64,000 nt of DNA, from NCBI GenBank assembly GCA_907163375.1, contig CAJQUW010012931.1, positions 80,034 to 144,033 of the forward strand, read 5' to 3'. Both the position numbers and the translations under genes were made by a program. Below are positions 33,205-52,346 of the stretch, one piece after another. Below the pieces are notes generated by a model, which saw only the letters and a program-made list of their open reading frames with translations, had not been told where the DNA came from and searched no databases. Origin of the DNA: Prostheceraeus crozeri. Lineage: Eukaryota > Platyhelminthes > Polycladida > Euryleptidae. Position 1 is the stretch's first letter. Each line of letters starts with the position of its first letter.

Positions 33205-33254
33205 CTTCAGTAGTAAGCAAGTGACAAATACTGGATAGCGCAAGATGGCCGCCG

Positions 33255-34140: not shown

Positions 34141-34217
34141 TCGTTGAATCACACGAGTGACGGACGCACATTTTCTCTCTCTCTCTCTCTAGTTCCCTGT
34201 TCTATTATCCAACTAAA

Positions 34218-34993
34218 ATGGTAAGTCGCTACTTCCCTCCCTCTCCTCCCTTGAACGTAAACTTAATACAATCTTTTTTCATTTTCAGGCATCTACTCCA
34301 TCTGCTGCACTAGTAGGACAAAATGGCGGTCAAACGTTACAAGGTTCGCTACGGTCAGATCATCTACAACTGAGGCCAGTGGAAGAAACATCCAAGGTAC
34401 ATAATCCTACACCGCTACAGCGTAAATTTAAACAAGCCTTGCGTTATGATGATCATAGCGTAGTACTCCAAACGGGAATGCTCCCTTCCACGGATGTCAA
34501 GATAATGCACAATCAGTATGGGGACTACATACTGATCCCCGTGAGTCCGTACATTCGCCACCAACTTGATATTATTGAGGAGTACGTGACATTAAATATG
34601 GACATTCCTACTCCTCTTGCTCAAGAGTGGAAGGCGAGAGATGACAAGGATACTCCCTATAGAAAGATTTGGGATGGTAATCACATTTGCCTACCGGTAT
34701 CACATTGGTGTACTTACTATAAGAAGGATGGAGATCATTCAAAACCCATCAGATGTGATGAGCTCGGAGAAGGTACTTGGGATATCCTTTTCAAAGTGAA
34801 TGGGCTATATTATGGTCGACACAAGGATAATAAAATAGCCTCTCTCTCCATGCATATGGAATCCATCCTATATATTCCGAAACCACCCAACGTGGACGAC
34901 ATAATTGATCAAATCCTTAACAGCAGTGGTACGAAGCGCAAGTCGGAGAAGAATGCTACATCAAAACGCAAATCAAAGAAGGAGAATTGCTAG
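34218..34993 (+). CDS. Uncharacterised early-type protein with ATG-only first coding exon
   Basis: Coding exons 34218-34220 (just ATG) and 34289-34993, with a 68-nt intron 34221-34288 bounded by GTAAGT and TTTTCAG. The predicted protein has 235 aa. No upstream ATG exists in the long second exon before residue 31, which supports the spliced start. The middle part contains KIMHNQYGDYILIPVSPY and WDILFKVNGLYYGRHKD, then SMHMESILYIPK; the C-terminus is Lys/Arg/Ser-rich (a likely nuclear signal or nucleic-acid-binding tail). The pattern of the last third vaguely recalls OB-fold single-strand-binding proteins, which would suit a replication role, but this is inference only. It is the first gene of the left transcription unit. 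Confidence 0.7.
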
Positions 34994-35027
34994 TCCTTTC
35001 CTAACTCTACCCTATGACAATTCGCTT

Positions 35028-35153
35028 ATGTGCTTTGAGTGTCGTAGACGTGGTCTTATTAGATACATTTTACTTCTTCGTTGCCATCATATCATTTGTG
35101 TATTTTGTCGTGAAAAGCATCGATGTAATTCTTCATTTTGTAATATGTTATAG
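35028..35153 (+). CDS. Small RING-like zinc-finger protein
   Basis: A 41-codon ORF from ATG to TAG packed with metal ligands: CFEC, then 12 residues, then CHHIICVFC and C....C. Spacing C-x2-C-x12-C-x-H-x2-C-x2-C-x5-C-x4-C is close to a RING finger although very short. It lies between the leader-spliced genes. It could be a mini RING protein, a C-terminal exon of another transcript or a decayed gene. A second, larger RING protein is encoded at 36237. Confidence 0.4.
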   Translation: MCFECRRRGLIRYILLLRCHHIICVFCREKHRCNSSFCNML

Positions 35154-35187
35154 AACGTTTCCTTAGATGTGTAAATTTCCGTTTTAG

Positions 35188-35736
35188 GCTTCTATCATCA
35201 TTTTTATGGATTGTGAGGGTGAACCTGTACAGGAGCTGAGTGCTATTGCTATGAACAATTGGACATATCAGATTGTTAGTGTCTATCATCAACATGCCAA
35301 CTGCGATCCCAATGTTGATCAATGGGCGAGAAAACACATTCATGGACTTAATCTGAAATATTTGCAAGACTATGGCTTTTCTTGTGAAAGTGCTCTTCTT
35401 ATTGACTTTAAACGATGGTTAGCTGCTTTCAATGTTATACGCATCTTTTGTAATAATCCTGGTAAGGAGAGGAAAGTATTTCCCAATCTAATCATTGATG
35501 ATATTTTGCTCCCACCTTGGGATACTAGAGTGAATCAACATTATCATGAAGTCACGAAACGTTTTAAGGATTTGTGTGTTCCTATTTTGTCTGTTCGTTG
35601 TAGTAGCTACGTTCATAACCAATGCTTCTTTCCTCCTTACCTCAACACTGCCAAAGTCCTGTATGGTTATCATTGCTCGCTGTATGATAGTTACCAGCTG
35701 TATCTATTTTATCTCTTTCAAACCATTGATTTATAA
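35188..35736 (+). CDS. Uncharacterised protein, possible nuclease-like, behind a second splice acceptor
   Basis: The frame opens exactly at an acceptor (TTTCCGTTTTAG at 35176-35187). The base triplet before it is an in-frame stop, so translation could start from the spliced leader ATG at 34218-34220 or at the internal ATG 35206. The protein (176-182 aa) begins with a beta-strand-like hydrophobic run followed by MDCEGEPVQELSA, then WARKHIHGL, LLIDFKRWL and NNPGKE. The D-x-E after a hydrophobic strand is reminiscent of exonuclease motif I of DnaQ/RNase T-like folds, but I could not locate the other acidic residues with confidence. AATAAA follows at 35759-35764. Confidence 0.6.
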   Translation, partial: ASIIIFMDCEGEPVQELSAIAMNNWTYQIVSVYHQHANCDPNVDQWARKHIHGLNLKYLQDYGFSCESALLIDFKRWLAAFNVIRIFCNNPGKERKVFPNLIIDDILLPPWDTRVNQHYHEVTKRFKDLCVPILSVRCSSYVHNQCFFPPYLNTAKVLYGYHCSLYDSYQLYLFYLFQTIDL

Positions 35737-35758
35737 TGCATGCTTGTTACCGTTATTC

Positions 35759-35764
35759 AATAAA
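35759..35764 (+). terminator. Poly(A) signal AATAAA
   Basis: AATAAA 22 bp after the stop codon of the 35188-35736 gene. It probably ends the transcripts that start at the left promoter. Confidence 0.55.
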
Positions 35765-35823
35765 TGTTACTATGAGAAGAGTTGTTGTTTTCATGCAATG
35801 GATGGGTTAGATAAAGGGCGATC

Positions 35824-36234
35824 ATGTCTTTCTCAAACGACTGCGGAACATTACGTTTTCATAGGCAAAGTTTAAAAGGAGCTGTTCAAGATTATGTGAT
35901 AAATTTTCATAAAGATGAGACCGACATCGAAGCAGTGGTTGATGATGCTAGCACTCTATTTCTAGAGTTAATGAATACATTCTCTGATAGCATTATCATG
36001 GCGCGATTAGTTGCGAAAATTAAGTTTAGTCATTTTGGAAAGCAAGAGGTGGAAAGTCGCTCTTTCCATTTTGCTTCTTATTCAATGGAAGTGGTAGATC
36101 ACCCCCAAGAATTTTTTAAAAGACATATGATAAAAATTGCCGAACGTCTTAACGCATTTAACCATCATGGTAGCAGTCTAGTGATTGAAGCGATTTCAGA
36201 TATTCACATTCAACTTTCCATAAACAAAAATTAA
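35824..36234 (+). CDS. Standalone copy of the polymerase-associated N-terminal domain
   Basis: 136 aa, start at ATG 35824. The C-terminal half (MARLVAKIKFSHFG, ESRSFHFASYSMEVVD, FFKRHMIKIAERLNAF, SLVIEAISDIHIQL) follows the same pattern as the domain that precedes DNA polymerase B in this element (50164-49497: KALIYLKLKYIKID, RIQFHVPSSSATEVVD, LNFHIQCLKSNVDKF) and as the N-terminal domain known from Polinton polymerases (F...GSGW.L..I..L.I.I). It therefore looks like a duplicated, free-standing version. Function unknown; partnering with the polymerase or the protein primer is a reasonable guess. It is followed 2 bp later by the RING gene. Confidence 0.6.
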   Translation: MSFSNDCGTLRFHRQSLKGAVQDYVINFHKDETDIEAVVDDASTLFLELMNTFSDSIIMARLVAKIKFSHFGKQEVESRSFHFASYSMEVVDHPQEFFKRHMIKIAERLNAFNHHGSSLVIEAISDIHIQLSINKN

Positions 36235-36236
36235 AA

Positions 36237-36560
36237 ATGCAGTGGTACTTGATTGTAGCACAACTGGTTTTCGAGCTATGTCTGCTCACTCTCGAAGTAT
36301 ATTCCTTCTGTACATGCGTCTATTATTTAGAAAAGGCTAGCAAATTCATATCTTCAAAAAGACTTGCTATAGACATCAGTAACGGTGAAACTATGTGTTG
36401 CGATGTATGTAAGCGAAAGGATGGAAATGAAAAGCGCATCTTCAAGAGATGTAAGCATGCTTTTTGTCAACGCTGTTTCATACGTAATTGCATTCAACTT
36501 TGCCAATGTAACCACTGTGATATTGCTCATTTCGAGTGTCACTTATGTCGCAATAGTTAG
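36237..36560 (+). CDS. Membrane-anchored RING-finger protein
   Basis: 107 aa. Residues about 3-30 form a hydrophobic segment (WYLIVAQLVFELCLLTLEVY) suitable as a membrane anchor. The rest has a RING-type finger: CDVC, then 12 residues, CKHAFCQRC, then CQCNHC and CHLC. C-x2-C-x12-C-x-H-x2-C-x2-C fits the first six RING ligands. RING proteins are typically E3 ubiquitin ligases, so a virus-host interaction role is plausible but inferred. It starts 2 bp after the upstream stop, as part of a tightly packed plus-strand series. Confidence 0.7.
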   Translation: MQWYLIVAQLVFELCLLTLEVYSFCTCVYYLEKASKFISSKRLAIDISNGETMCCDVCKRKDGNEKRIFKRCKHAFCQRCFIRNCIQLCQCNHCDIAHFECHLCRNS

Positions 36561-36565
36561 TACCT

Positions 36566-36573
36566 ATGCAAAT
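36566..36573 (+). promoter_or_regulatory. Octamer ATGCAAAT upstream of the core-protein gene
   Basis: A perfect ATGCAAAT (POU-factor octamer) 38 bp before the ATG at 36612. Related copies sit at 36971, 39578, 43092, 44518 and, on the minus strand, 42741-42734. Confidence 0.5.
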
Positions 36574-36611
36574 GTGGTAAAGATAGGTTTTAGCAAAGAC
36601 TAACACGAAAA

Positions 36612-36968
36612 ATGGCGAAACGTAAAATGACGAAACGTAAAAGTCAAAAGTTTTCTTCAGCCATTCAAGCTCTCCGACGAATGAAAGCAAATCAGCGATA
36701 CAATGCTATACGACATGCCAACGATAAATTCATTCATGAAATTATTTCTCATGTGAGAAAGTTGAGGACGAAGAAATTAGCACCAAAACAACGAAAGTTA
36801 CTTAAGCGATATGCTACGAAATTGCGTTTCATCTCCAATCCTAAAGTCACCCTTCAAAGAAAGAGGAAAACTCTAACACAAAAGGGCGGTTTCCTTTCAG
36901 CAATACTTCCGATGTTAGCTCCTGTCGTGGGTAACCTATTGGGAAATATCTTTGGCTCTAAGCGTTAA
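36612..36968 (+). CDS. Basic core-like protein with hydrophobic Gly-rich tail
   Basis: 118 aa, about one third Lys/Arg/His. The N-terminal 90 residues are strongly basic and helical (KRKMTKRKSQKF, RKLRTKKLAPKQRKLLKRY). The tail KGGFLSAILPMLAPVVGNLL followed by GNIFGSKR is an uncharged hydrophobic/Gly segment. Small proteins with basic bodies and GGFL-type amphipathic tails are common in Polintons and recall adenovirus core and membrane-lytic proteins (the comparison is inference). Probable role: DNA condensation in the particle or membrane penetration. Its end is 31 bp before the ATPase start, with an octamer between them. Confidence 0.7.
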   Translation: MAKRKMTKRKSQKFSSAIQALRRMKANQRYNAIRHANDKFIHEIISHVRKLRTKKLAPKQRKLLKRYATKLRFISNPKVTLQRKRKTLTQKGGFLSAILPMLAPVVGNLLGNIFGSKR

Positions 36969-36970
36969 TT

Positions 36971-36978
36971 ATGCAAAT
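36971..36978 (+). promoter_or_regulatory. Octamer ATGCAAAT upstream of the ATPase gene
   Basis: Perfect ATGCAAAT, 21 bp before the ATPase ATG at 37000, followed by TTGAG. It lies immediately after the stop codon of the core-like protein gene. Confidence 0.5.
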
Positions 36979-36999
36979 GTTGAGTCTCAAAGTAATAAA

Positions 37000-37617
37000 A
37001 TGGATTTCAGACTTCAATGTGATAAAGTTCTGACTGTATCAGGTCCATCTCATGCAGGTAAAACTGTTTTCACGCTGAATTTATTGGATAAAAGAAGGGA
37101 GTTGTTTAGGGAAGCTATCAATCGAGTGATTTGGTGTTATGGTATTTATCAACCGTCGCTGTTTCAGGAATTGCAAAGTCGCAACTTTATTCGACATGAA
37201 GGAATTATTGCAGTGGATAAACTTCAGTCTAATGATGTTGTTGTATTGGATGATTTATTAAAAGAAAGTAAGAATTCAAAAGATGTTACAGATATGTTCA
37301 CTCGCGCAGCACACCATAAAAGGTGCTTTATCATCTATATCACACAAAATTTGTTTCCTGATGGAAAAGAAGCTCGTACACGAAACCTGAATACACACTA
37401 TTATGCTATTTTCAAGAATCCGCGAGATAAAAGTCAATTTGAAATTTTAGCGCGACAAGTTGCACCCAGAGGATCAAAAGCCTTAATTGAAATTTTTCAA
37501 GCAGCTACTGAAAAACCATACGGTTACTTATTCATTGACTTTACGCAAGAGTGTCCGGAAGAATTTAGATTTCGAAGTGATATTTTGAAAACTCCCATGA
37601 TTATCTACAAACTATGA
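37000..37617 (+). CDS. FtsK/A32-type genome packaging ATPase
   Basis: 205 aa. Start set at ATG 37000, because the frame upstream lacks an ATG and overlaps the previous gene. Walker A is GPSHAGKT (residues about 15-22). Walker B is DVVVLDDLL (about 72-80). Downstream are AAHHKRCFIIYITQNLFPDG, with the sensor-like TQN after a hydrophobic strand, and NTHYYAIFKNPRDKSQF. These are hallmarks of the A32-like packaging ATPases shared by Polintons, virophages and giant viruses, which pump DNA into the capsid. The stop TGA overlaps the next ATG in the tetranucleotide ATGA (37614-37617). Confidence 0.92.
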   Translation: MDFRLQCDKVLTVSGPSHAGKTVFTLNLLDKRRELFREAINRVIWCYGIYQPSLFQELQSRNFIRHEGIIAVDKLQSNDVVVLDDLLKESKNSKDVTDMFTRAAHHKRCFIIYITQNLFPDGKEARTRNLNTHYYAIFKNPRDKSQFEILARQVAPRGSKALIEIFQAATEKPYGYLFIDFTQECPEEFRFRSDILKTPMIIYKL

Positions 37618-38306
37618 GTTCTTATTCTCGCATGATTGTTATTCCTCAGGATGAATATGTACAATTGACTGCCATGCAGCAAGTAAAGCAACCTCTTGCA
37701 AATCAAATGTATAGGAAAGAAATAGATTATCAGCAAAATGTTCACATCAAAGATCCACATCGTGCTGTATTATTACAATCGGAAACTGTTGAGCAATTAA
37801 AAAACTTGAAGAATAAGATGCGTGACTCTGTATCGACTGCAACACCTTTAGCATCTCGCGCACATGCCATATCTCTTTTCAACAGTATTGAACCCCATCT
37901 CAATGTAAATGATAGAGGAGAAATCATTACAGATGAAAATAAAGTGATTGATGCTTCACGTTATGAAGACTTGATTCAGTATGCGACACGTAGAAAGCGC
38001 CGTCAGGGCTATGTTCCACCTGGTTGGTCATACTTTCTTAAACTATTGAAAAAGCATAATGTACCAAAATTTGCTTTGAATAATGAGACATTGAAAGAAC
38101 TTGATTCAACAGTGGCTACTGCTCCAATGCTTCAGACGATGAAAATGCCAACAAATTGGTTTAAGGCGTCACCTGCTACATCCCCTCCCACACTCACTAA
38201 GCAAACAAGAGGAAGAACTCGACGTAGATCTACATCGCCACTAAAACTAGTAAAAGGAAAACGTAAAACAGCTCCTCCCAGGAAATACATGTTCTCAGAC
38301 TATTAA
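37614..38306 (+). CDS. Conserved Polinton-type protein of unknown function
   Basis: 230 aa, beginning in ATGA overlap with the ATPase. Features: an N-terminal MIVIPQDEYVQL strand, a helical region rich in charged residues (DPHRAVLLQSETVEQLKNLK), a central segment GYVPPGWSYFLKLLKKHNVP and a strongly basic C-terminus (RGRTRRRSTSP, KGKRKTAPPRKY). A protein of this size with a P.G...F..LL....VP segment next to the ATPase is common in Polinton-like elements, but its role is not known to me. The basic tail suggests nucleic-acid contact, perhaps within the particle. Confidence 0.6.
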   Translation: MSSYSRMIVIPQDEYVQLTAMQQVKQPLANQMYRKEIDYQQNVHIKDPHRAVLLQSETVEQLKNLKNKMRDSVSTATPLASRAHAISLFNSIEPHLNVNDRGEIITDENKVIDASRYEDLIQYATRRKRRQGYVPPGWSYFLKLLKKHNVPKFALNNETLKELDSTVATAPMLQTMKMPTNWFKASPATSPPTLTKQTRGRTRRRSTSPLKLVKGKRKTAPPRKYMFSDY

Positions 38307-38307
38307 T

Positions 38308-38523
38308 ATGAAGCAGATGTGTTGCTTGCCATGTAATGAGCCGCCAGAGGTGAATGTCGTTGTCACTTGCACTTGCTGCGCCAGCTCTCACAATGAAACC
38401 CCTAAGCAATGTGAACACGATCGCAAAACCGCTAAAGCTAAATGCTGCAGTTGTTGTAAATGTAGAAAGGCAAGAAAGCAAAAAGATGAGAAGGAGGAAA
38501 AAGAGTCAGTCGTCATCGACTGA
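38308..38523 (+). CDS. Cys-rich small ORF overlapping the integrase start
   Basis: 71 aa, starting 1 bp after the preceding stop. It has 12 cysteines in clusters (CCLPC, CTCC, CCSCCKC) followed by a basic then acidic tail (RKARKQKDEKEEKE). The clusters could bind zinc or form disulfides. The first 130 bp of the longer integrase frame run in another frame of the same DNA, so only one of the two readings may be used there. The tight spacing and Cys pattern favour this being real, but it may be chance. Confidence 0.4.
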   Translation: MKQMCCLPCNEPPEVNVVVTCTCCASSHNETPKQCEHDRKTAKAKCCSCCKCRKARKQKDEKEEKESVVID

Positions 38524-39574
38524 ACGTTTGAAGTCAATCTATTATGATGTAAAACATCCGGCAGGATTTGCATCGATCAAGAAATTATCAAAAGCGAGTG
38601 GTCTTCCACAATCACAAGTGAAACGATGGTTAAAGGGTCAGGCTACCTATACACTCCACAAACAAGCGAAAAAGAAGTACCGCACCCGCCATTATATTGT
38701 TCATGACATCGATGAACAGTGGCAAGCAGATTTGTGCGATGTTGCCTCCATTTCAAAACATAACTCGGGCAATAATTTTATTTTAACCGTCATTGATATT
38801 TTCTCGCGTTATGCGTGGGCTCAACCTTTAAAAACTAAAGAAGGGAAAGGAGTAGCAAAAGCATTCCAAACAATTTTTCGAGAAGGTCGGATTCCAAAAA
38901 GAATTCAGAGTGATCAAGGAAAAGAGTTTGAAAATCAGCATGTGAGAAGATTATTTGAGAGGCATGACATTGAGTTGTTTAGTGTAAAGAGTGCTTATAA
39001 AGCTGCACTCGTTGAACGTTTTAATCGCACATTAAAAAATCGCTTGTGGCGACATTTTACTGCCAACTTAACACAAAATTGGACAAAGGTTCTACAAGAT
39101 ACACTCCATGCCTACAATCACTCTATCCATCGTTCTATTGGACTCAGACCAGTAGATGTAAATGCTGACAATGTAGATAAAGTGCGCGAATCATTCCAAC
39201 GTAAACGCACTCATTTGAAAAGTGATGTGAAAATTGGTGATAAAGTTCGTATCTCAAAAGTGAAAAGTGTTTTTGCTAAAGGGTACCTTCCGAATTGGAC
39301 AGAGGAGGTATTTACAGTATCAAGGATTAATCAAAAAGACTCTCCGACCACCTACAAGTTGAAAGATTATGATAATGAAGAAATTGAGGGTAGCTTTTAC
39401 CGCGATGAGATTGAGGTAGTCACTGAAAGTGAAACATATTTGGTAGAGAAAATCATTCGATGTAAAAAACGGCAAGGTGAAGAATGGTGTCTTGTTAAAT
39501 GGAGTGGTTACCCTTCAAGTATGAACTCTTGGATGCGTCGTGCCGACATCTTTCATCTAAGTGATCGACAGTGA
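38486..39574 (+). CDS. Retrovirus-like (rve) integrase with chromodomain
   Basis: The frame is open from an ATG at 38354 (406 aa). The start at 38486 (MRRRKKSQSSS, 362 aa) is preferred because the first 44 residues look non-native and overlap the Cys-rich ORF. N-terminal HTH-like part ASIKKLSKASGLPQSQVKRW. The catalytic core has WQADLCDV (first Asp), RIQSDQGKEFEN (second Asp) and ALVERFNRTLKNRLWRHF (Glu), with D and E 34 positions apart. An SH3-like segment (IGDKVRISK) follows, and a C-terminal chromodomain (YLVEKIIRCKKR, EEWCLVKWSGYP, NSWMRRADI). Polinton integrases insert the linear element into host DNA, and the chromodomain probably steers target choice through histone marks. Confidence 0.95.
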   Translation: MRRRKKSQSSSTERLKSIYYDVKHPAGFASIKKLSKASGLPQSQVKRWLKGQATYTLHKQAKKKYRTRHYIVHDIDEQWQADLCDVASISKHNSGNNFILTVIDIFSRYAWAQPLKTKEGKGVAKAFQTIFREGRIPKRIQSDQGKEFENQHVRRLFERHDIELFSVKSAYKAALVERFNRTLKNRLWRHFTANLTQNWTKVLQDTLHAYNHSIHRSIGLRPVDVNADNVDKVRESFQRKRTHLKSDVKIGDKVRISKVKSVFAKGYLPNWTEEVFTVSRINQKDSPTTYKLKDYDNEEIEGSFYRDEIEVVTESETYLVEKIIRCKKRQGEEWCLVKWSGYPSSMNSWMRRADIFHLSDRQ

Positions 39575-39577
39575 TTC

Positions 39578-39585
39578 ATGCAAAG
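39578..39585 (+). promoter_or_regulatory. Octamer-like ATGCAAAG
   Basis: ATGCAAAG followed by TTG, 30 bp before the ATG at 39616. Same sequence and similar distance as the element at 43092. Confidence 0.45.
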
Positions 39586-39615
39586 TTGTAACTAACAATG
39601 TTTAGGGTTTGAGCT

Positions 39616-40071
39616 ATGAATCCAACTGCCTCATTTTATTCACGACCCTCCTATGTAAGTGGTGGAGGACAAATTTACATCGGCGCTCGCCGCCAACGTG
39701 GAGGTAGCATACTTGGTGCACTGAAATCTGTTGTAGCACCTCTCATATCCAATGTCGGTAGATCTTTAAAACGAAATGTTTTAAGTAATGCCGTTGGCTT
39801 TGCTGGTGATGTTGCTAGTGATCTTTCCAGAGGTAGAAGTTTTAAGAGCAGTTTGTTGAATCGTGGGAAGGAACGCGGTTTAAAAACATTGAAGCAGACC
39901 TTTGCTGGTGTTACTCAAGGAAAGAAATCACCTAAACGAATGAAAAAAGGAAGGAGGAAACATCGCGGAGCTGGTAAGGCGCGATCTTCAGTCAAAAGGC
40001 ATTCACGCAAACGTCGCAGAGGCTCTAATCATTCATCAGGCGCTAAACGACGACGCTGCTATAACTTCTAA
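39616..40071 (+). CDS. Basic, Gly-rich minor virion protein (adenovirus core/pVI-like by analogy)
   Basis: 151 aa. The N-terminal stretch SFYSRPSYVSGGGQIYIGAR is followed by RQRGGSILGALKSVVAPLIS, an amphipathic helix after a Gly pair. The middle part is helical with KGRGLKTLKQ-like segments. The C-terminus is extremely basic (KRMKKGRRKHRGAGKARSS, KRHSRKRRRGS). Proteins with G.R.RGG..G....... helix plus basic tail precede the capsid gene in many Polintons and are thought to link DNA and capsid or disrupt membranes. The stop lies 2 bp before the capsid ATG. Function is by analogy. Confidence 0.7.
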   Translation: MNPTASFYSRPSYVSGGGQIYIGARRQRGGSILGALKSVVAPLISNVGRSLKRNVLSNAVGFAGDVASDLSRGRSFKSSLLNRGKERGLKTLKQTFAGVTQGKKSPKRMKKGRRKHRGAGKARSSVKRHSRKRRRGSNHSSGAKRRRCYNF

Positions 40072-40073
40072 TC

Positions 40074-41351
40074 ATGGAGTGTAAAACTTCCGGTTTTTGT
40101 TTGTTCGATCAACAAGCCATACAGACAGATATTCTTAGTTCAAGTATTGTAGATTATCATCCTCGAACAGCTGAGAATGCTGGCCCCATTGAATTTGTTA
40201 TTCCTGGTGGTAGTGATGACTACATAGATTTGAGTTATGCGATGCTTGATTTGAGGTTTAGAATTCAGCAAGCAGATGGAACTGCTATTGACGATGCACA
40301 TAAAGTTGGACTGAACAATTTACCATTGACTACATTACTTCGTGATGTTTCTCTAACGATTGGAGAGCAGCAGGTGGAAGGTGGTCAAAGCGATTATCCC
40401 TATAAATCATATTTCAATCATGTATCACAGTTTCATCCAGCAGCACAAAAAAGTCATATGGAAGCCATGGGATGGTACAGAGATGAAGCAGGAAAATTTG
40501 ATGTTGAAACAAACAGTGGCTTTGTAAAGCGATCTGCTATGATTAAAGATAGTAGAGTATGTCAGCTATATGGTCCGCTGAATTTAGACTTCTTTAGACA
40601 GTCAAAGTTTTTACTGTGTAATACCAGCATGCGACTCAAGCTGACATTGAATAAGCCTGAATTTGCGCTGAATGCATTTGCTAAAGTTGACAATTTTAGA
40701 ATTCATGTGGAAGATATTGCACTTTACATTCGTCGAGTAGTACCGAATCCAAGTGTCATTAGAGGGCATGCTGAAGGCCTTAACCGCCAAAATGCCATTT
40801 ACCCCGTTCAGCATACAAAGCTTCTCACCTTTACAATTCCGAAAGATCAAAAGAGTTTCATGAAAGATGGCCTCTTTCCATCGGAAGCACCGAAGCTCCT
40901 CATGGTGGCAATGGTTGAAAATGATGCATTTAATGGTAATATAAAGAAGAATCCTTTCAATTTTAAACACAATCAGTTAAGTGAAATTGCTTTACGTGTA
41001 AATGGTGTGAGTCATCCTGGTCCACCCTACAAACCAGATTTTGCTTCGGATCAATTTATGCGCAGTTATGTTGATTTTATGGATGTCTTTGGCTTTTACA
41101 ATACGGATGACACCAACGGACTGACTATGAAAGAGTTTAAGAGTGGATATACTATTTATGCATTTGATTTGACTGCTGACAGCGATATTAGTGCACCCTA
41201 TCGTCAAGCGAACGTGCCTCATAATATTCGTTTGGATTTGACGTTCAAAAGAACACTACCTGAGACGATCAATGTATTAATTTATGCAGTCTTCGATTCA
41301 AATATTGAAATTACAAAGTATCGTGACGTGATTCTTCAGTATAATCGTTAA
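40074..41351 (+). CDS. Major capsid protein, double jelly-roll type
   Basis: 425 aa. Near the N-terminus PIEFVIPGGSDDYIDLSYAM begins a stretch that continues with LDLRFRIQQADG and NLPLTTLLRDVSLTIGEQQV, then YPYKSYFNHV and KSHMEAMGWYRD. This Y.DL...L..R..I...DG, NLPL..LF..V...L....V, YPY..Y signature defines the capsid (hexon-like) family of animal Polinton/adintovirus elements (often labelled F54H12.2-like in databases). The C-terminal half has alternating strands consistent with a second jelly roll and ends in INVLIYAVFDSNIEI. It would build the icosahedral shell. It is intact. The stop TAA overlaps the protease ATG (TAATG). Confidence 0.9.
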   Translation: MECKTSGFCLFDQQAIQTDILSSSIVDYHPRTAENAGPIEFVIPGGSDDYIDLSYAMLDLRFRIQQADGTAIDDAHKVGLNNLPLTTLLRDVSLTIGEQQVEGGQSDYPYKSYFNHVSQFHPAAQKSHMEAMGWYRDEAGKFDVETNSGFVKRSAMIKDSRVCQLYGPLNLDFFRQSKFLLCNTSMRLKLTLNKPEFALNAFAKVDNFRIHVEDIALYIRRVVPNPSVIRGHAEGLNRQNAIYPVQHTKLLTFTIPKDQKSFMKDGLFPSEAPKLLMVAMVENDAFNGNIKKNPFNFKHNQLSEIALRVNGVSHPGPPYKPDFASDQFMRSYVDFMDVFGFYNTDDTNGLTMKEFKSGYTIYAFDLTADSDISAPYRQANVPHNIRLDLTFKRTLPETINVLIYAVFDSNIEITKYRDVILQYNR

Positions 41352-41812
41352 TGAGTTGGTTGACTGCTGACGATATTAAGACTAAAGTGCAGCGTAATGC
41401 AGACGAAGCGACGTTGAAAGCTTTCGATAATGTCTATTCACTCGATACCTTACCACCTGCAGTAAATCACTATCCCATCTTTATTGTGCTAAACACTCAT
41501 TCACAGAATTTAGGCGGTGAGCATTGGAAAGCGATCTTTATTGGAGAAGACCGACGTGGTGAACTATTTGACTCTCTTGCTCAACCTCCAAATATACCAA
41601 CACAGCAGTGGTTGAGAAAACATACGCGTCAATATCAGCGAAATGAACGCATACTACAACATCCACTTTCATCAACGTGTGGTGCTTTTGTACTGTACTT
41701 CATCTTAAGACGTTTACATGTATCTCGATTTGCATCTGTTATTCAAAACTTTTCATGTAATCCATCCTCTAATGAAAAAATGATTTGTAAGTTCTATCAT
41801 GATTTGAAATAA
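41351..41812 (+). CDS. Adenain-like cysteine protease
   Basis: 153 aa, C5/C48-type fold. Catalytic residues by motif: His in GGEHWKAIFI (residues about 56-65), the acidic residue in RGELFDSLAQ (about 69-78) and Cys in STCGAFVLYFILRR (near residue 110), with a Gln (IPTQQW) between them. Order His-Asp/Glu-Gln-Cys and length match Polinton and adenovirus maturation proteases, which cleave capsid precursors in the particle. It starts in 1-nt overlap with the capsid stop. Its own stop TAA lies within the AATAAA at 41808-41813. Confidence 0.92.
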   Translation: MSWLTADDIKTKVQRNADEATLKAFDNVYSLDTLPPAVNHYPIFIVLNTHSQNLGGEHWKAIFIGEDRRGELFDSLAQPPNIPTQQWLRKHTRQYQRNERILQHPLSSTCGAFVLYFILRRLHVSRFASVIQNFSCNPSSNEKMICKFYHDLK

Positions 41813-41843
41813 AAACATCATGTTGGAAAAATTGTTTTTTATT
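41808..41843. terminator. Convergent poly(A) signals overlapping both stop codons
   Basis: AATAAA on the plus strand (41808-41813) contains the protease TAA, and AATAAA on the minus strand (41843-41838) contains the TBP-like TAA. Two converging genes end within 36 bp. Confidence 0.7.
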
Positions 41844-42384
41844 TTACAATCCGCTGGGTACGTACATACTCAATGAGATAGTCTAGGATCATATTTGCTT
41901 GTACATGAGATTTTAGTCCAGTAATGATCACTTTACTATTATGAAAGATTGCCACATGCACAGGTAACCAACAACTAATGAGAGCTGCAGGAAAAAGTTC
42001 GGGTTCATAACACAAACTGTAACTGCTGGTACGAATCTTCAAAAATGATAGACTGTCACTCAATTGAGTAGAGATCACCATATTGTCCACAGTCAGATTC
42101 GACATCACACACCTCTCCCTCTTCCATATCCGACGTAGTAGTCTTTGTAGCTCTAAGCGCATTGACTGCGCCGATGAATGAGAAAGGGCGCCGAGAATCT
42201 GTACAGTCCCATTTGGGAAGAGTTGAAGATTCCGTGAATTGTTCATCTTCACCACTAACATTTGAGGACGACCCGGGTAATACTTGCTGTTTGGAAGCTG
42301 TTGGTGTAATGTTGTGAGATCGATTTTGGTATAGAGTCTGAAGCGACGGAGAATGTTGACGATGGTGTAGCGATGGCGCTTCAT
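41839..42384 (-). CDS. TATA-box-binding-protein (TBP) homologue
   Basis: 181 aa from ATG 42384 (the frame upstream is open but overlaps another gene and lacks TBP similarity). Two imperfect direct repeats as in TBP. Repeat 1: TIVNILRRFRLYTKIDLTTL, NSKYYPGRPQML, LQLFPNGTVQILGA. Repeat 2: NLTVDNMVISTQL, SYSLCYEPELFPAALI, VAIFHNSKVIITG. The YEPELFP box and the N..Y.P.R block are TBP hallmarks; human TBP has NAEYNPKRF and SYEPELFPGLIYR. By eye three of the four DNA-kinking Phe positions are kept; the first is replaced near the Pro of GRPQ. Length equals the conserved TBP core, with no N-terminal extension. Expected role: nuclear, binding TATA DNA and recruiting TFIIB and RNA polymerase II to the element's promoters. 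Confidence 0.85.
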   Translation of the reverse strand: MKRHRYTIVNILRRFRLYTKIDLTTLHQQLPNSKYYPGRPQMLVVKMNNSRNLQLFPNGTVQILGALSHSSAQSMRLELQRLLRRIWKRERCVMSNLTVDNMVISTQLSDSLSFLKIRTSSYSLCYEPELFPAALISCWLPVHVAIFHNSKVIITGLKSHVQANMILDYLIEYVRTQRIVK

Positions 42385-42706
42385 GATGAAAGAATGAGTA
42401 AATTGAGCGATGTACCTTCCTTTTATACTTTTCCCAACTACCTTGATGAAATGTGAAGTTAGTATGAAGTTGGGAATGATAGAGTTGAATTCGCCGATTG
42501 TTGACGCGCAACCAGATGCGATTTCCAATACGTGAATGTCTTTTCATATAGAAGTATTTTAAATCCTTCATGATATGATGTAGAGATTGAAAATGACGAT
42601 AAGATAAAGCAAACTCTCTTCTCACATTTCCAGTTGAATCTTTGAAATAGACGTTTCGATCATGATCCGTTTCAATACGTTGTAGGGAATCTAATTTCCA
42701 ACTCAT
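42056..42706 (-). CDS. PC4-like paralog B with overprinted tail
   Basis: 216 aa from ATG 42706. Residues 1-105 are paralogous to the neighbouring gene (42729-43085): both have LDSLQ.I..D.D.NV.FK.S.G, then a strand-helix unit (FQSLHHIMKDLKYF versus FVNLNDIMRDLEYF), then a second unit with I.LYHS.......F....WEKY.R.VHRSI. Each unit resembles the strand-rich core plus G(I/F).L....(W/F)..L helix of the transcription coactivator PC4/p15; this link is inference. The last about 110 residues are Ser/Asp/Glu-rich and lie in a different frame over the start of the TBP-like gene (329-nt overlap), so the true end may be earlier. An octamer ATGCAAAT sits at 42741-42734. Confidence 0.5.
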   Translation of the reverse strand: MSWKLDSLQRIETDHDRNVYFKDSTGNVRREFALSYRHFQSLHHIMKDLKYFYMKRHSRIGNRIWLRVNNRRIQLYHSQLHTNFTFHQGSWEKYKRKVHRSIYSFFHHEAPSLHHRQHSPSLQTLYQNRSHNITPTASKQQVLPGSSSNVSGEDEQFTESSTLPKWDCTDSRRPFSFIGAVNALRATKTTTSDMEEGEVCDVESDCGQYGDLYSIE

Positions 42707-42728
42707 GGTGTGTGATAGTCATGTCTGA

Positions 42729-43085
42729 TTAAGATTTGCATAGTAGGGCGATGAACTCACGACGAATAAATGTCATGATGGAGCGATGTATGTATCTTCT
42801 ATACTTCTCCCAATTGTATTTGCGAAATGAGAAACAGTTTGCGGAATGAGAATGGTAGATTTGAATTTCATTTCTGTAATGTTGAAGCCAAACTTGATCA
42901 CCCAGGGAGATGAATCTTAATGTTTCAAAATATTCCAAATCCCTCATGATATCATTGAGGTTGACAAATTGTCGCCATGTTAATGTAATTCCTCTTGATG
43001 TATGACCATGAGAATTTTTGAAATGTACGTTTCCATCACGATCAACTCTGATATATTGTAGAGAGTCCAAAATCCAAGTCTTCAT
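42729..43085 (-). CDS. PC4-like paralog A
   Basis: 118 aa, ATG at 43085. Paralog of the N-terminal part of 42056-42706. Two repeats of a strand-rich segment followed by a helix: YIRVDRDGNVHFKNS, TSRGITLTWRQFVNLNDIM, then SLGDQVWLQHYRNEIQIYHS, FRKYNWEKYRRYIHRSIM. The RGITLTWRQFVNL segment recalls the KGISL.PEQW..L motif of PC4, a single-stranded-DNA-binding coactivator that works with TBP and TFIIA. Assignment is tentative. The start codon lies 35 bp from the divergent plus-strand gene at 43121, so the two share a tiny intergenic region. Confidence 0.5.
   Translation of the reverse strand: MKTWILDSLQYIRVDRDGNVHFKNSHGHTSRGITLTWRQFVNLNDIMRDLEYFETLRFISLGDQVWLQHYRNEIQIYHSHSANCFSFRKYNWEKYRRYIHRSIMTFIRREFIALLCKS
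42734..42741 (-). promoter_or_regulatory. Minus-strand octamer ATGCAAAT
   Basis: Perfect octamer 27 bp upstream of the ATG at 42706. Confidence 0.5.
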
Positions 43086-43091
43086 GATGTT

Positions 43092-43099
43092 ATGCAAAG
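43092..43099 (+). promoter_or_regulatory. Octamer-like ATGCAAAG in a 35-bp divergent spacer
   Basis: ATGCAAAG followed by TTGCAG, 21 bp before the ATG at 43121 and within the short spacer to the minus-strand gene starting at 43085. Confidence 0.45.
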
Positions 43100-43120
43100 T
43101 TGCAGATTAGCAATATAAAA

Positions 43121-44518
43121 ATGTCGTTTTATCATATTTTGCTTAGCAATGCGGCTACAAAGAGATTTACTAGTAATCGAGCCGCACTCTTTTCTACTCC
43201 CATTGATCATGCACAACAGCTAAATGGGAATTGGGAAGTGGGTGTCACTCAACTTGTTTATAGCAACTGTGTCTATACTTTTGATCATGAGGTGATGACT
43301 ATTAATATGAGACGTACAGCTGCTTACCAATGTGAAAAGGGCTGCCGAGTATACATTCCACAGTGGCCAAAGAAAGATCTCTTATTATGTAAAAAGTTTA
43401 TATATGATTTCTTGAATAAAGCGTGTAAACATATTGCCCAATTTACTCCACACAATGATGATTATACTTATATACATCATGTAGTTGAGAAAGATTGGAT
43501 TGTTGGTTTAAGTCCAAGTTTAAGAAATGATTTAGGTTACCTCGCTAGCGCCTTGACAAGCTATGATAATTTTAACGTTAATTACCACATAAGTGCTCAT
43601 AAACAGTTAATATATCGAGAGGAAGCTTATTATGTAGATCTTATTCCAAAAAATGAGAAGACGTTGGTGAAGAAGATTGTGATTAAGCCAAGAAAGACAA
43701 ACATGACTCCTGAAACATTATTGAAGAAATTTAATTATCTCCTTCGAGTTGATGGTAAACAAGTGGCAACATTGACTTATATTAAATCATCTAATCATAT
43801 TGCAATAAGTAAATTAAATGATGATGATCTAGTATTAGTTTGTTCAAAAGATTTTCATCAGTTCTTGCGACATCATTCTGCAGCTGTTCATGGAAAATTT
43901 AATATGCAACATTTACCATGTGAAAGGTCAAATCAATTTGATACAGAATGGACCGTATCTTTATACAGAAAGTGTGTAGAGCCTTTCGGTGGTATCTTAC
44001 ATGAAACAAGAGTGTTGATGCCTCGCATCATTACTTCAGTTAAATTGGTTGTAGATTATTTAAATGAAGTGATTAATGACCAACATATTTCATTTTCTGA
44101 AAAAGAAGGTACTTTGTCTCTCACTATAAGTGGAAAAGGTATTGAACTAATTATGGATAAAACTCTAATGGACATTTTGGGTTTTGACCAAAATATCTTT
44201 AAAAGTGGTACTGTAACCAAAGCTAGCGCAGACATGTCGCTATCGCGTCGTATTAACTATTTTCAGATATATTCCAATATTGGTGAAGATGTACGTGTGG
44301 GAGATGTTGAAGCTCCATTGCTAGCAATGATACCATACCAGCCAAAGAGCTGCAGTATTTTATCTGAGCATACTTTCAAGAAAGTGCATTATACAAAGCT
44401 GAAATCAAACTACATCCCACAAATTGATATTGCCATTTATGACGATGCTGGTGCGTTGATTCCTTTTCATAAAGATGCTGTGACAAGTATCACACTCCAT
44501 TTCCGAATGAAGAGTTAA
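43121..44518 (+). CDS. Large structural-type Polinton protein, paralog 1
   Basis: 465 aa from ATG 43121 (the frame before it starts at a TTG). The N-terminus has FYHILLSNAATKRFTSNR followed by LNGNWEVGVTQLVY, the signature (L.SNA....F..N....F...L...L.G.WEV.L..I.Y) of a family that accompanies capsid genes in animal Polintons. A module ending in a predicted strand-helix recurs three times: YDFLNKACKH to LGYLAS, LLKKFNYLLR to FHQFLRH, VVDYLNEVIN to MDILGFD. Plausibly a minor capsid, penton or spike protein; the exact role is unknown. Its stop TAA overlaps an ATG (TAATG at 44516-44520), linking it to paralog 2. Confidence 0.75.
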   Translation: MSFYHILLSNAATKRFTSNRAALFSTPIDHAQQLNGNWEVGVTQLVYSNCVYTFDHEVMTINMRRTAAYQCEKGCRVYIPQWPKKDLLLCKKFIYDFLNKACKHIAQFTPHNDDYTYIHHVVEKDWIVGLSPSLRNDLGYLASALTSYDNFNVNYHISAHKQLIYREEAYYVDLIPKNEKTLVKKIVIKPRKTNMTPETLLKKFNYLLRVDGKQVATLTYIKSSNHIAISKLNDDDLVLVCSKDFHQFLRHHSAAVHGKFNMQHLPCERSNQFDTEWTVSLYRKCVEPFGGILHETRVLMPRIITSVKLVVDYLNEVINDQHISFSEKEGTLSLTISGKGIELIMDKTLMDILGFDQNIFKSGTVTKASADMSLSRRINYFQIYSNIGEDVRVGDVEAPLLAMIPYQPKSCSILSEHTFKKVHYTKLKSNYIPQIDIAIYDDAGALIPFHKDAVTSITLHFRMKS

Positions 44519-44525
44519 TGCAAAC
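44518..44525 (+). promoter_or_regulatory. Octamer-like ATGCAAAC
   Basis: ATGCAAAC starting on the last base of the upstream stop codon, 32 bp before the preferred ATG at 44558. A weaker match than the others. Confidence 0.35.
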
Positions 44526-44557
44526 GTATGCTAATATATTTTTCCAATGTGAATAAT

Positions 44558-46078
44558 ATGGAAAGTGAAAATAAGGACTCGTTTCTAATCTACTTGCCCA
44601 GTAATGCTTCTATGAATAAATTTCCCAAAAATAAACCATCAGACTATCGAGTAGAATTAAATCGGCCACTGCATTTAGAAGGTGAATGGGAGGTTGGCGT
44701 TTCTAGTATTTGCTATGATAGCAATATTCAGAATGTGAATGATTTGGAAGAAATGATATTGACTCCTCGCACCCATGATGGAATAACGATGAATAATGCA
44801 TTTCAGTTCCCATACAATTTAACATCAGATGGAAAGTGGAACTATGAATGGATTCAGATAAAATCAGATTCTTATGTGCCATTTGGGAATGAGAAAATTA
44901 TTAAGGCATTCAACAGTGGTAATACTTCCATCATGAAGAATAAAAATCAGAAAGCTTATGAGTTTACTATCTATCATTGGAGTGGGAGACAGTTCCTCCG
45001 CTTTCATTCTTTTACTAAAGGTCTTACGCTGAGGTTGGATAGTGAATTCTATCCCCATCTCGGTTTTGGTCATGGACTACATCTAACGTCAATTGCTACT
45101 GCAAATGTTAGAAAAGTTTATTCAAATCGAATCAACAAATTTCATTATAGATTTAAAATATTTGATGAAGATGTTGTAGAATGCGAAGAACGCATCATTT
45201 TGAAAAAGCGTGGTGTTCAACCTTTATCACTTATTGAGTTAGTAAAACGATGGAATGAGACTGTGGGTAAGAAGTATGGAGAGAAAATTATGGCGGACAA
45301 AAATAAGTTGGTCATTCAGAAATATAATGACAAACTTACAGTTTATTTCTCTCCAACCTTGCGTCATTTTGTAAGACATTATACACCTATTATTGGAAGC
45401 GGTGTGGTGTATGCTTCTCATGAATATCACACTAAAGCTGATTCAGTTAATGATGAATGGTGGGTGGACATCTATGGCGATCGCATCAAGAAAATTTACC
45501 AGTCTTATGAAGAATCTAAAGTTGCTATCAATATAATGCCGCGTCTATATCATACAGTTGAAAGCTTCATTCATGTAGTAAATCCTTATATACAACAGAA
45601 GTTGAAGCATGTGATGAAAAGTAAATATGATGTAAAGACACACCACATTTCGTTTTCAATTGAAAATCAACGCGTTGTTCTGAAACTGGGTGATGACATT
45701 CAATGTCAATTGAGTAAAAATTTGAAAAAACTCTTTGGTTTTTCAATGCTACAAACTGTGTTTGCTGCTGCGCATACGATTGGTATAGAAACACCAATGA
45801 CACTTGATAAACATGAACAGCACCTTTACATTCAAAGTGATTTGATTCTACCTATTTCTGTTGGTGAGAAAAAAGAATACATTTTACGCGATTTCATTCA
45901 TGATAAAGACGCTTCATATGGAATAGTCGAGAAGATGTTTGAATCTATTTTCTATCATCCCGTCGTCAAACAAACTATACCCTCTATTGCTATCAAAATT
46001 ACCAATGGTTTACAAGAGTGCATCCACGTGAAAGATACTAAATCCCTCATAACGTTAGTGTTTCGGAAAACAAAGTGA
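44558..46078 (+). CDS. Large structural-type Polinton protein, paralog 2
   Basis: 506 aa from ATG 44558; an in-frame ATG at 44528 would add 10 residues. The N-terminus DSFLIYLPSNASMNKFPKN leads to LEGEWEVGVSSICYDSN, the same family signature as paralog 1 but closer to the common LPSNAS form. Three repeats of a helix followed by a beta segment and a L..LGF-type end are visible: IIKAFNSG to FYPHLGFG, LVKRWNETVG to LRHFVRHY, FIHVVNPYIQ to LKKLFGFS. The two adjacent paralogs arose by tandem duplication and have diverged strongly. Likely a virion component. AATAAA follows at 46173. Confidence 0.75.
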   Translation: MESENKDSFLIYLPSNASMNKFPKNKPSDYRVELNRPLHLEGEWEVGVSSICYDSNIQNVNDLEEMILTPRTHDGITMNNAFQFPYNLTSDGKWNYEWIQIKSDSYVPFGNEKIIKAFNSGNTSIMKNKNQKAYEFTIYHWSGRQFLRFHSFTKGLTLRLDSEFYPHLGFGHGLHLTSIATANVRKVYSNRINKFHYRFKIFDEDVVECEERIILKKRGVQPLSLIELVKRWNETVGKKYGEKIMADKNKLVIQKYNDKLTVYFSPTLRHFVRHYTPIIGSGVVYASHEYHTKADSVNDEWWVDIYGDRIKKIYQSYEESKVAINIMPRLYHTVESFIHVVNPYIQQKLKHVMKSKYDVKTHHISFSIENQRVVLKLGDDIQCQLSKNLKKLFGFSMLQTVFAAAHTIGIETPMTLDKHEQHLYIQSDLILPISVGEKKEYILRDFIHDKDASYGIVEKMFESIFYHPVVKQTIPSIAIKITNGLQECIHVKDTKSLITLVFRKTK

Positions 46079-46172
46079 AGTCTTTATACAACATTTATTG
46101 AAATATGTACATGAATGTGAAGCAATAGACTTTATACAACATCCACTGAAAATATATACATGAGCGCACTTC

Positions 46173-46178
46173 AATAAA
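46173..46178 (+). terminator. Poly(A) signal AATAAA
   Basis: AATAAA 94 bp after the stop of structural paralog 2, in the 300-bp spacer between the converging plus-strand gene and the polymerase. Between them a TTTATACAACAT block is repeated twice (46083 and 46133). Confidence 0.5.
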
Positions 46179-46383
46179 CATTGCTATATACAAAAAGTCT
46201 TTTTACTTCGTGAAGGGTGGAAATATACAGGGATAGGAAAAATGTCTTTCAGTGGAAAAGTCATCACATGGGGAATGTACAGATGTGGACACATATTCAC
46301 AAGGAAGAAACGATCTCATACGATACATAAAACAACCATGTTTATCTACAGAAAGCAACATCAAAATACTGAGTTAAAGTTGA

Positions 46384-49300
46384 TTATGTCAATACATCTC
46401 CTGAATGTGGTAGCGTGAGTTTTATTCTTTTGGGTGGAGGTATGTTTGTATCAGGATGTCCATGTGGAAGAGATGTGTTATGTCCTATCCAACACCTCTT
46501 ATCCTCCCATGCTGAAAGCGCTCGTTTCTTAAATGTGTACGTTTTCACAGTATGAATTTGTGATTTTAAGATTGTCATATTGACAAACGTTATATTTTTA
46601 TTTTTATAGGCCTTCTTATAGGACCGATGTTTCATTTTTTGGACAATTGATTTTGATATTCCTTTAGCACGCTTAATACTATCTGCACATTCTTTTAATT
46701 TCATGGAATACATTTTAGGGCGGAGGAGAATCATTTCATCTATTTCCTTTCCTGCTGTTTCATCCTTAAAACAACCAAGTTTGGCTTTATTCTGTATGGA
46801 AAAGAGTGGATGAGCGGGATTGTAGTTAGATGTGTCGAAATATTTTTCTAATGACTTAGCTACTTCATTAAAATTTAAATCTTTTTGAGTGGTAATACCT
46901 AAGAAGAAACTATCTGTATCACCACCCAACAAACGAACCTCTTTTACGAGAGGACATGGTTTTAGTATTTTATAAAAGAGTTGGTACATTTCAAGCTTAG
47001 AGTAATCTAGTACAGCTTGGCCAATATAGATGGGCTTGCACAACTCAACTTCTGATTTAATCATTTTAACACCTACAAGATCCTCATCGATGATGTCTCT
47101 ATCAATGAAAAGAGGTGATGAGGTCAATTTGTGATATTTTTGTCCATCAACGACTAGTTTGTAATTCATACGTTTTCTAACATCCTCCATGGTCTTTCCG
47201 AATAGACTGTTATTCTTATATTTATAAAAATCCTTTTCAAAATTATTTTGGGCGAGTGCACGTTTTTGACTGTTACTATCTATGTAGGGTTTGAGGAAGG
47301 CTTTCTGTCTAAATTTGATAATGCGGTGAACTGACTTTAGAAGCATGCCCATTTCTAAATAGAATTTTAATATGCAGAAGTGTACGAGATAATTTTTCTT
47401 ATCATATTGGGTGAGTAAAAGTTTGCGGCATGGTTTGTACCTTGGCTGTCCACACTCTATTAAGTTATTATGAAATTGTGACATGAATGGTGAAAACATA
47501 TCTTCAGTCACTTCACCAGATTCAGGTGCGAGTGGGAAATCAGCAGTTTTATTTTTAATGCTATTTGGATAAATCAAATCCACTTCAAAATAATATCCCC
47601 AATCACCTTCATCTGGAATCTTCAGTATGTTTGAAGGGTTGGAGTAATACTCAAGCTCATCTTGATTTAACCAACTAAACTCGGAATGAGGTAGTGGTTT
47701 AGACAGTGAACTGCCATATAAATTATTTTGGTCATAGTACTTTAGGTGGATATGATCATCACCTACTGTTTTAGATTTTATATGATGTTTATTTACAAAT
47801 GTGAGACCACCGCGTATTCCGCGCTCAAATATGTTATACATCTCGGGGTCTTGTAAGAGATGAATGGTCTCACCAGTCATTTTAAAGGCTGATTTAAAGG
47901 ACATGGCTGGTAGACTGACAAAGTGGACAGGATCTAATTTGTCTTCTTCTAATGCCACTCGTCGAAATTCCTGAAAGACATCAGCCAGCAAAATGACATC
48001 TAATTCTAAGTAAGCGATCATATAATCGCCAAACGTTTTACAATCAAATTTTGTCCATGCCTCTTGAGCATGTTCATAGTCCTCTACTGGACAATCTTCA
48101 CCCGTCAAATCGTTTTTGAATTTGTCAATGGAAGGAAGGGTTGTTTCATTTAGTTTAGACATTGAGCTAAAATACGCATAGGGAAAGACTCCTTTGCGAG
48201 TGATCATGTCATCTGTTAAGTTTGGATAGTGTTTCTTCAAAGTTTGACTATGGGGAAGAAACTTGAGATTTCGAACGAGAGAAGCTAGTGACGCTGACAT
48301 GAATTGAAATGAATCTAAAAATTTTATTTCGAAGAAGACTATCTTATTTTCTTTAGTTTTATCTACTGGTACTTTTGCTGTCATTGCCATGAATTTTTCT
48401 CTCGTTTGTGCTATTACATTGAACTGCCACGATTTCATCTGGCTCAACCCTCCTTTTATGAGCATATGACTGTCATAGCCCTTAAAGTTATGAAAAATGA
48501 CGGGTAGTACACGACGTCTCAACCTAAGTGAAAAGTTACATTTGGAGCAGAGTGCGTTTCTAAATTTACCAGTGATGTGATCATGATCACGCACTTTCTT
48601 AATTTTATCGTCATCAAACGTTTTATGACATTTAGGACAGGATGTGCAACTTTCAAATTTTTGTTTGTCTTCATCTGACATATGTAGTGACTTACGCTGC
48701 AATTGGGAATCATATGATTGTTGAAATTTAGCAGCTTTATCGAGAAATTCTAGAAATTTTGAAATGCAATCTTCACCTTGCCAAGTATGCATTTTATTTT
48801 GTCTATTCCTAAAGTGGTCATGCCATACTTCATAGCAGGATATGGCTGCTGGCTTGTGGATGTTATCATCGATATAGCATTCGATGTCTGCGTAAATGAC
48901 ACGCAGGGGACTTAATTCGTCACCATTATCCCTATGTGAAAAGATTTTATCTTTGGGCATGCGTTCCATTTGTAATTTACCTCGCTTACACCATTCGTAA
49001 TGAGTTTCAAATTTAGTTTTCCTCCTAAAGTGGCGAATACATCTGTCGCAGTAATATAACTCTCTACTAGAGTTTTCTAAGTGGTGGTATAAGCGAGAGA
49101 TTTTGGGAATACCGCAGTAGTGCCATTCCTCACTATCATCCTGTTTTACTAATAACAGGTTTACTGTACGTTCATAACAACTCGAACGCGAATTATAGCG
49201 GGCACCCTTCAACCCCTTCTCCCACACGTGAACGACAATTTTAATCTTATTATGTTTTTCGAACGTTTCTACATCTTTGATTTTCATGTTGTTACTATCA

Positions 49301-49490: not shown

Positions 49491-49496
49491 GACTTT

Positions 49497-50354: not shown

Positions 50355-50507
50355 TTCAATGAAATCAAGTTTAAGGTTGATGCTTCAATAAGATAGAGAC
50401 TTCACTCAATTAATACGTCTCAAATTTGGAATTCACTTGTACACCTCAAATAATAGCAGAATTCGCTAGAGAACACTTCACTTATACGTCTCAAAGACAG
50501 AGTGAAA

Positions 50508-50576: not shown

Positions 50577-50647
50577 GCTTGTTGATACTTAAGAATTAGA
50601 AAAATGTTAAAGTTATCATTATTCAAAGTCAGCATTTCAAAGACAAC

Positions 50648-52335: not shown

Positions 52336-52346
52336 GTAACGTCATC

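Follow-up and report, generated by a model that had tools for sequence, protein, structure and literature searches.

Can a transposable element carry a TATA-binding protein (TBP) of its own, and if it does, whose promoters would that protein serve? The question is raised by a minus-strand open reading frame (ORF) at 41839–42384 of the window, the 64,000-nt stretch of DNA analysed here, in which all positions are counted. An earlier sequence-only reading had taken this ORF for a TBP with both core repeats, encoded by a Polinton and perhaps used to build private pre-initiation complexes on the element's own TATA promoters.

A two-repeat TBP within a Polinton

The ORF runs from an ATG at 42384 to a TAA at 41841–41839 and encodes 181 aa, with two TBP repeats at residues ~6–85 and ~97–175. 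Pfam TBP (PF00352) matches it in two stretches that correspond to both repeats (E=4.9e-20, 71.6 bits, cut-off 22.9), and TBPs in the PDB were matched by sequence with best E-values of 2.1e-12 for the single protein and 1.1e-24 for a family profile. An AlphaFold model built on a 62-row alignment reached a pLDDT of 95.5, and all 44 Foldseek matches in the PDB at E<=0.001 were TBP-containing entries (query TM 0.66–0.81). The ORF is thus a two-repeat TATA-binding protein, and the family search and structure prediction that had been proposed as checks returned a significant TBP match and a saddle fold. The named motifs are all present: LFPNG at residues 55–59, NMV at 101–103, YEPELFP at 126–132 and IFHNSK at 146–151. 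Repeat 1, however, departs from the standard block and carries P40 where in cellular TBPs a Phe follows the Arg.

The TBP gene belongs to a Polinton with an rve integrase, a placement that is well supported by the genes beside it, by copies throughout the genome and by the ends and target duplication of one of these copies, and that agrees with the sequence-only reading. The integrase gene (38354–39574, plus strand) matches Pfam rve (4.5e-11) and encodes a C-terminal chromodomain (Chromo, 7.1e-07). Upstream of it lies a probable A32-like packaging ATPase (37000–37617, plus), with Pox_A32 matches below the cut-off (E=0.017 and 0.019) and a P-loop, SGPSHAGKT, read by eye. Downstream are a 425-aa protein (40074–41351, plus) and a probable Ulp1/adenovirus-type cysteine protease (41351–41812, plus; Peptidase_C48 E=0.001, 19.4 bits, cut-off 20.7), the latter convergent with the TBP gene. 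The 425-aa protein has 263 relatives in public data and no sequence match in Pfam or the PDB; it is a candidate capsid protein on the grounds of its place in the gene order of Polintons.

Two small ORFs precede the TBP gene on the minus strand. P0065 (42729–43085, 118 aa) has a predicted PUR-alpha/Whirly-like nucleic-acid-binding fold with two beta4-alpha units, as in the PUR-alpha/Whirly/PC4 fold, and no sequence match to the PUR, Whirly or PC4 families in Pfam or the PDB. The N-terminal part of P0064 (~110 aa, 42374–42706) is a paralogue of P0065. The full P0064 frame comprises 216 aa (42056–42706) and overlaps the TBP gene by 329 nt in another frame; of 20 other copies, 15 keep it open to aa 217, 4 have a stop at aa 17–72 and 1 has a stop at aa 207. 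That the frame is open over most of the TBP gene's length, beyond the halfway point, may reflect either overprinting or chance.

Further to the right, ORFs of 465 aa (43121–44518, plus), without an assigned family and with a Pfam match at chance level only, and of 506 aa (44558–46078, plus), without a family match, are followed by a probable protein-primed PolB with an inserted endonuclease VII domain (46384–49455, minus; Endonuclease_7 E=8.7e-07). The PolB ORF has no polymerase match in Pfam or the PDB, and its PolB motifs DQNNLYG, KNNSLFGK and GGDTDS were read by eye. The right-hand terminal gene (49497–50354, minus) encodes a C2H2 zinc finger (zf-C2H2, 1.4e-06), its start at 50354 and its splicing being assigned by eye; near 49497–49530 the frame changes between this gene and the PolB ORF with almost no gap. 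Both terminal genes have a common 5' exon and intron (34216–34302 against 50356–50271, 73.6% identity) with the splice pattern ATG, gtaag...cag, GCATC, seen by eye, as if the start of one gene had been duplicated at the opposite end. No other strong similarity between the left and right sides was seen in the window, and we take this one for the common spliced exon and not for the terminal repeat.

The left end of the window element lies at 33209–33217 (plus; AGTAGTAAG), and other copies have the same ends. Copy C315 (23,530 bp) starts with AGTAGTAAG and ends with CTTACTACT, so that its termini read AGTAGT...ACTACT; its end regions are inverted, and the 6-bp target duplication GATATT is found on both sides. 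Copy C347 (23,892 bp) has inverted ends without a matching duplication, and copy C3350 has the right end, its exact left 9-mer not being found. The element resembles animal Polintons/Mavericks in its integrase, protease-like and PolB-like genes, its AGTAGT ends, its 6-bp duplication and its size. Polintons themselves are regarded as kin to, or ancestral to, many DNA viruses of eukaryotes. The window copy lacks its right end: similarity to C347 ceases after 53638 (and to two other copies at 52811 and 52968), the sequence beyond is a C+T-rich tract, and CTTACTACT was not found in the window after 50000. No inverted repeats of at least 40 nt were found at 30000–53000. Three 145-nt direct repeats, also found in other copies, lie at 51676–51820, 52192–52336 and 52668–52812 (94–97% identity to the first). 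A tract of ~10 kb with a GC skew near -0.9 (53640–63900) begins where element similarity ends; expansion of a simple repeat or a fault in the assembly could explain it. The flanking DNA contains a Tc1/mariner-type transposase and a reverse transcriptase, at 24169–25233 and 1368–3239.

Throughout the genome (2.05 Gb, 14,165 contigs searched), at least 150 places encode the identical 181-aa TBP without a stop (100% identity, among the matches listed), the window's own copy not being one of the 150 listed. Two distant relatives used as queries each found at least 150 places, of which 2 and 3 had a stop among the matches listed; these two sets overlap in part. Around the TBP gene, 3.1–3.5 kb in eight fetched loci is 98.5–99.8% identical to the window element. 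Each TBP query gave 10,347 to 11,899 first-look candidates, so that copies of this TBP-carrying Polinton may number in the thousands. Among 12 copies found with the distant-relative queries, one of them gapped, we counted 81 non-synonymous and 70 synonymous changes with respect to the window TBP, giving a pN/pS of 0.33 that is biased downwards because the copies were picked by protein similarity. There is a signal of purifying selection on the TBP in this biased sample.

Relatives of the element TBP and their distance from cellular TBPs

One protein search of public genomes and metagenomes recovered 61 relatives of the TBP, with 31–78% identity in the alignment. All 62 aligned family members match Pfam TBP at E<=0.001. 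Their contigs are under 5 kb for 46 of the 61, of 13–25 kb for eight, and at most 24,690 nt. Viral contigs were scanned with the TBP and the 425-aa protein, each also as an alignment, and with PolB and the integrase; neither these scans nor two genome-contig scans and tblastn against phages gave a relative in a DNA context, and relatives outside this genome are therefore known as proteins alone. Contig sizes were compared as a coarse fingerprint. A TBP relative (P0002) and a neighbour relative (P0067) are both on contigs of 1771 nt, and the families of P0065 and of the 425-aa protein have contig sizes of 12876 and 11119 nt in common. None of the 61 TBP relatives is on a contig of either of these two sizes, which may speak against universal presence of the gene or may reflect gene calling at the overlapping ORF. 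Relatives of the TBP and of the 425-aa protein share a contig size of 7106 nt (among the best 120 of the 263 relatives of the latter), a coincidence that chance could give.

The window TBP is 21% identical to the TBPs of yeast, human and E. cuniculi, 22% to that of S. acidocaldarius and 27% to that of M. jannaschii; for comparison, yeast TBP is 81% identical to the human protein and 37% to that of M. jannaschii. The sequence-only reading had proposed a phylogeny with host TBP, TRF paralogues and viral TBPs. Our tree contains 55 of the 62 family sequences (54 relatives and the window TBP; 7 shorter than 165 aa were dropped) and the five cellular TBPs, and as these are its only taxa, the split between the family and the cellular TBPs (support 100/100, long connecting branch) bears on separation and not on origin. 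From the tree and the low identity together, it seems that the TBP was probably not captured recently from a host gene.

TBP folds are already known in viruses. Structural matches in BFVD include proteins of Heterosigma akashiwo virus and Terrestrivirus, with 16% identity to the best named match and 21% to the best unnamed one. Giant viruses and mirusviruses likewise combine a TBP fold with a DNA virus, although they are far larger, and many of them encode their own RNA polymerase. In PMC10132985, TBP is given for 59% of mirusvirus genomes and for 0% of Nucleocytoviricota by that study's own gene clusters, and PMC10675990 describes sporadic TBP in endogenous elements of algae that putatively derive from mirusviruses. 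For a TBP in a Polinton, Maverick, virophage or adintovirus, there was no report among the literature matches listed, which is not proof of absence in print, and the string 'TATA' is absent from the main text of the Polinton papers PMC8097293, PMC4028283, PMC11071308 and PMC10120064. A Polinton-borne TBP is thus apparently unreported among the matches listed.

A rebuilt repeat 1 and conserved TFIIB-contact glutamates

Beyond its two-repeat saddle, the element TBP resembles cellular TBPs in its bare core length, in its YEPELFP stirrup and in the equivalents of N159, V161, F190, P191, F207 and T215 (yeast numbering in this section, except for residues named as those of the window protein). Across the family alignment (62 rows), repeat 2 retains N159 (62/62), V161 (62/62), F190 (61/62), P191 (62/62), F207 (62/62) and T215 (61/62); its alterations are V213, mostly to Ile, and L205, to Ala, Thr or Ser. 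The glutamates of the C-terminal stirrup that contact TFIIB are likewise kept, E127 of the window protein in 61 and its E129 in 62 of the 62 sequences. Roles in minor-groove contact for the compared residues are those of yeast TBP.

The differences from cellular TBPs, besides the low identity, lie in repeat 1. The window protein keeps three of the four intercalating phenylalanines (F56, F131 and F147), with yeast F99 replaced by P40, and F99 has become Pro in 58 of the 59 rows with a residue there. L114 is replaced by Gln in 58/62 and V122 by Gln in 62/62; T124 is Leu, Met or Phe in 62/62, mostly Leu; V71 is Met, His or Leu in 54/55 and A72 is Arg in 43/55. When eight positions of repeat 1 (69, 71, 72, 99, 114, 116, 122 and 124) are set against yeast TBP, only N69 (50/50 rows with a residue) and F116 (62/62) are kept family-wide, which makes a non-standard site more likely than an ordinary TATA box. 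The claim that the protein serves TATA promoters of the element is for the same reason probably not exact. Being both specific and uniform, the changes in repeat 1 look like new specificity and not like decay.

Three virus-encoded or cellular relatives offer comparisons. The four intercalating phenylalanines of TBP are described in PMC10005294 and PMC12529657. The latter presents KSHV ORF24, one of the TBP mimics of beta- and gammaherpesviruses, as a viral TBP fold in which hydrophobic contacts have become Asn, which works with host Pol II on TATTWAA promoters, needs all four of its phenylalanines, has lost the TFIIB glutamates and has extra domains; EBV BcRF1 is reported to be another virus-encoded mimic of this kind that also works with host Pol II. 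By comparison with ORF24, the element TBP is a bare core that has kept the glutamates and lost one Phe. The ORF24 parallel, with a polar face and TATTWAA promoters, suggests that specificity has changed in repeat 1 of the element protein. TRF2, a cellular TBP relative that we liken to it by description, is also short of one Phe: PMC10005294 describes it as lacking an intercalating Phe that TBP has, as failing to bind TATA and as directing special promoter classes. Loss of F99 could therefore mean weak or no DNA bending by the element TBP.

Start-site words and the possible roles of the protein

We compared the 60 nt before 18 gene starts of this one element family, the starts being the analyst's choice. 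The best-shared 7-mer is ATGCAAA, present before 6 of the 18 at distances of 29–46 nt: at 36566–36572 (plus), 46 nt before the ATG at 36612; at 36971–36977 (plus), 29 nt before that at 37000; at 39578–39584 (plus), 38 nt before that at 39616; at 42735–42741 (minus), 35 nt before that at 42706; at 43092–43098 (plus), 29 nt before that at 43121; and at 44518–44524 (plus), 40 nt before that at 44558. The sites at 42735 and 43092 are each kept in 17 of 20 other copies. The element (34200–50700) contains the word nine times in total. A best-shared 7-mer reached six starts in 3 of 5000 sets of random element windows and in 1 of 3000 dinucleotide shuffles; the ATPase start was 1 nt off in the random-window test and the right-terminal start 3 nt off in both. 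The word had first been noticed by eye, for which these two nulls allow; the comparison with other ATGs of the element, 11 of 845 of which follow the word (Fisher 3.6e-7), does not, the word having been picked after looking. ATGCAAA is absent at 12 of the 18 starts, including those of the capsid candidate (40074), the protease (41351), the integrase (38354) and the TBP, and is therefore no general promoter of the element. We regard it as a candidate promoter word, and its link to the element TBP as a hypothesis.

Host-type signals are also present. A canonical TATA box, TATAAAAG (42420–42427, minus), stands 43 nt upstream of the TBP ATG and is kept in 19 of 20 other copies, its bases also coding for P0064. 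Two CCAAT boxes and TATAAATA precede the left terminal gene, whose TATA box stands at 114 nt; the right terminal gene has no TATA[AT]A within 200 nt upstream.

On these sequence grounds, we consider the protein to be probably an element-specific transcription initiation factor that would work with host TFIIB and Pol II, which suggests that the element may activate its genes by means of a start signal private to it. The left terminal gene, with its CCAAT boxes and TATAAATA, would be read first from a host-type promoter, and probably the TBP gene as well, from TATAAAAG. Repeat 2 of the element TBP would then settle on an A/T-rich half-site and the rebuilt repeat 1 on a half-site unlike it; the conserved C-terminal stirrup would bring in host TFIIB and RNA polymerase II. 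Both DNA binding and TFIIB recruitment are inferred, and the order of an early phase with host TBP and a later one with element TBP is drawn by analogy with herpesviruses. The proposal of private pre-initiation complexes is in this form plausible, given the rebuilt repeat 1, the kept TFIIB residues and the word at one-third of the starts. If an integrated element encodes a TBP whose DNA face is rebuilt, the timing of its capsid genes becomes testable.

The protein could instead act in trans on the host, titrating TFIIB or sitting on host TATA promoters, and so slow transcription or divert polymerase without any private code. Conserved TFIIB contacts and nearly all compared contacts of repeat 2 are what such an activity would use, a changed repeat 1 could yield a partial, non-productive TBP, and an ordinary TATA box of host type precedes the TBP gene. 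We nevertheless hold this to be rather unlikely, because the uniform glutamines of repeat 1 (58/62 and 62/62) look like a new specificity and because a common word precedes six of the 18 starts. The many intact copies of the TBP gene in a single genome also make it worth asking whether host promoters respond to an initiation factor that comes from a parasite.

A plain TBP substitute would bind ordinary TATA boxes and add to the TBP dose where this is limiting, with ATGCAAA as a host POU-type site. The TATA boxes before the left terminal gene and the TBP gene would suit it, as would the six ATGCAAA sites, three of which have the sequence ATGCAAAT, the octamer to which POU factors bind. Against it stand the identity of only 21–27% to the five cellular TBPs, the family-wide change of most compared repeat-1 contacts and the position of ATGCAAA, which at 29–46 nt from the start codons is nearer to a core-promoter than to an enhancer place; it is an improbable account. 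Re-use of the TBP fold for another DNA task, such as packaging or replication, aided by the PUR/Whirly-like neighbours, would fit a gene flanked by a protease-like gene on one side and by those of two predicted nucleic-acid-binding proteins on the other, but it leaves the TFIIB-stirrup residues without a reason to persist at 61/62 and 62/62 and is very unlikely. That a host TBP, a TBP-related gene or a retrocopy landed beside a transposon is, although the host genome must possess its own TBP, ruled out by the copy number (at least 150 places with the identical protein) and the near-identical flanks of the eight loci, and sits badly with the separation of the 55 family sequences from the cellular TBPs.

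Within the favoured reading of an element-specific initiation factor, a tentative and on balance doubtful refinement is that the TBP reads a box of the TATGCAAA type, repeat 2 lying on its TAT half and the conserved repeat-1 glutamines on the half containing G and C, and forms late complexes with host TFIIB and Pol II. If true, the herpesvirus TATT system would have an independent counterpart carried by a Polinton. The 8-mer TATGCAAA precedes four starts, a weaker signal than that of the 7-mer (70 of 5000 sets of random windows), and with at most one mismatch it occurs 92 times in the whole window against 82, without clear enrichment. With at most two mismatches, ATGCAAANGTTG was observed 45 times in the whole window, against 27.5 expected.
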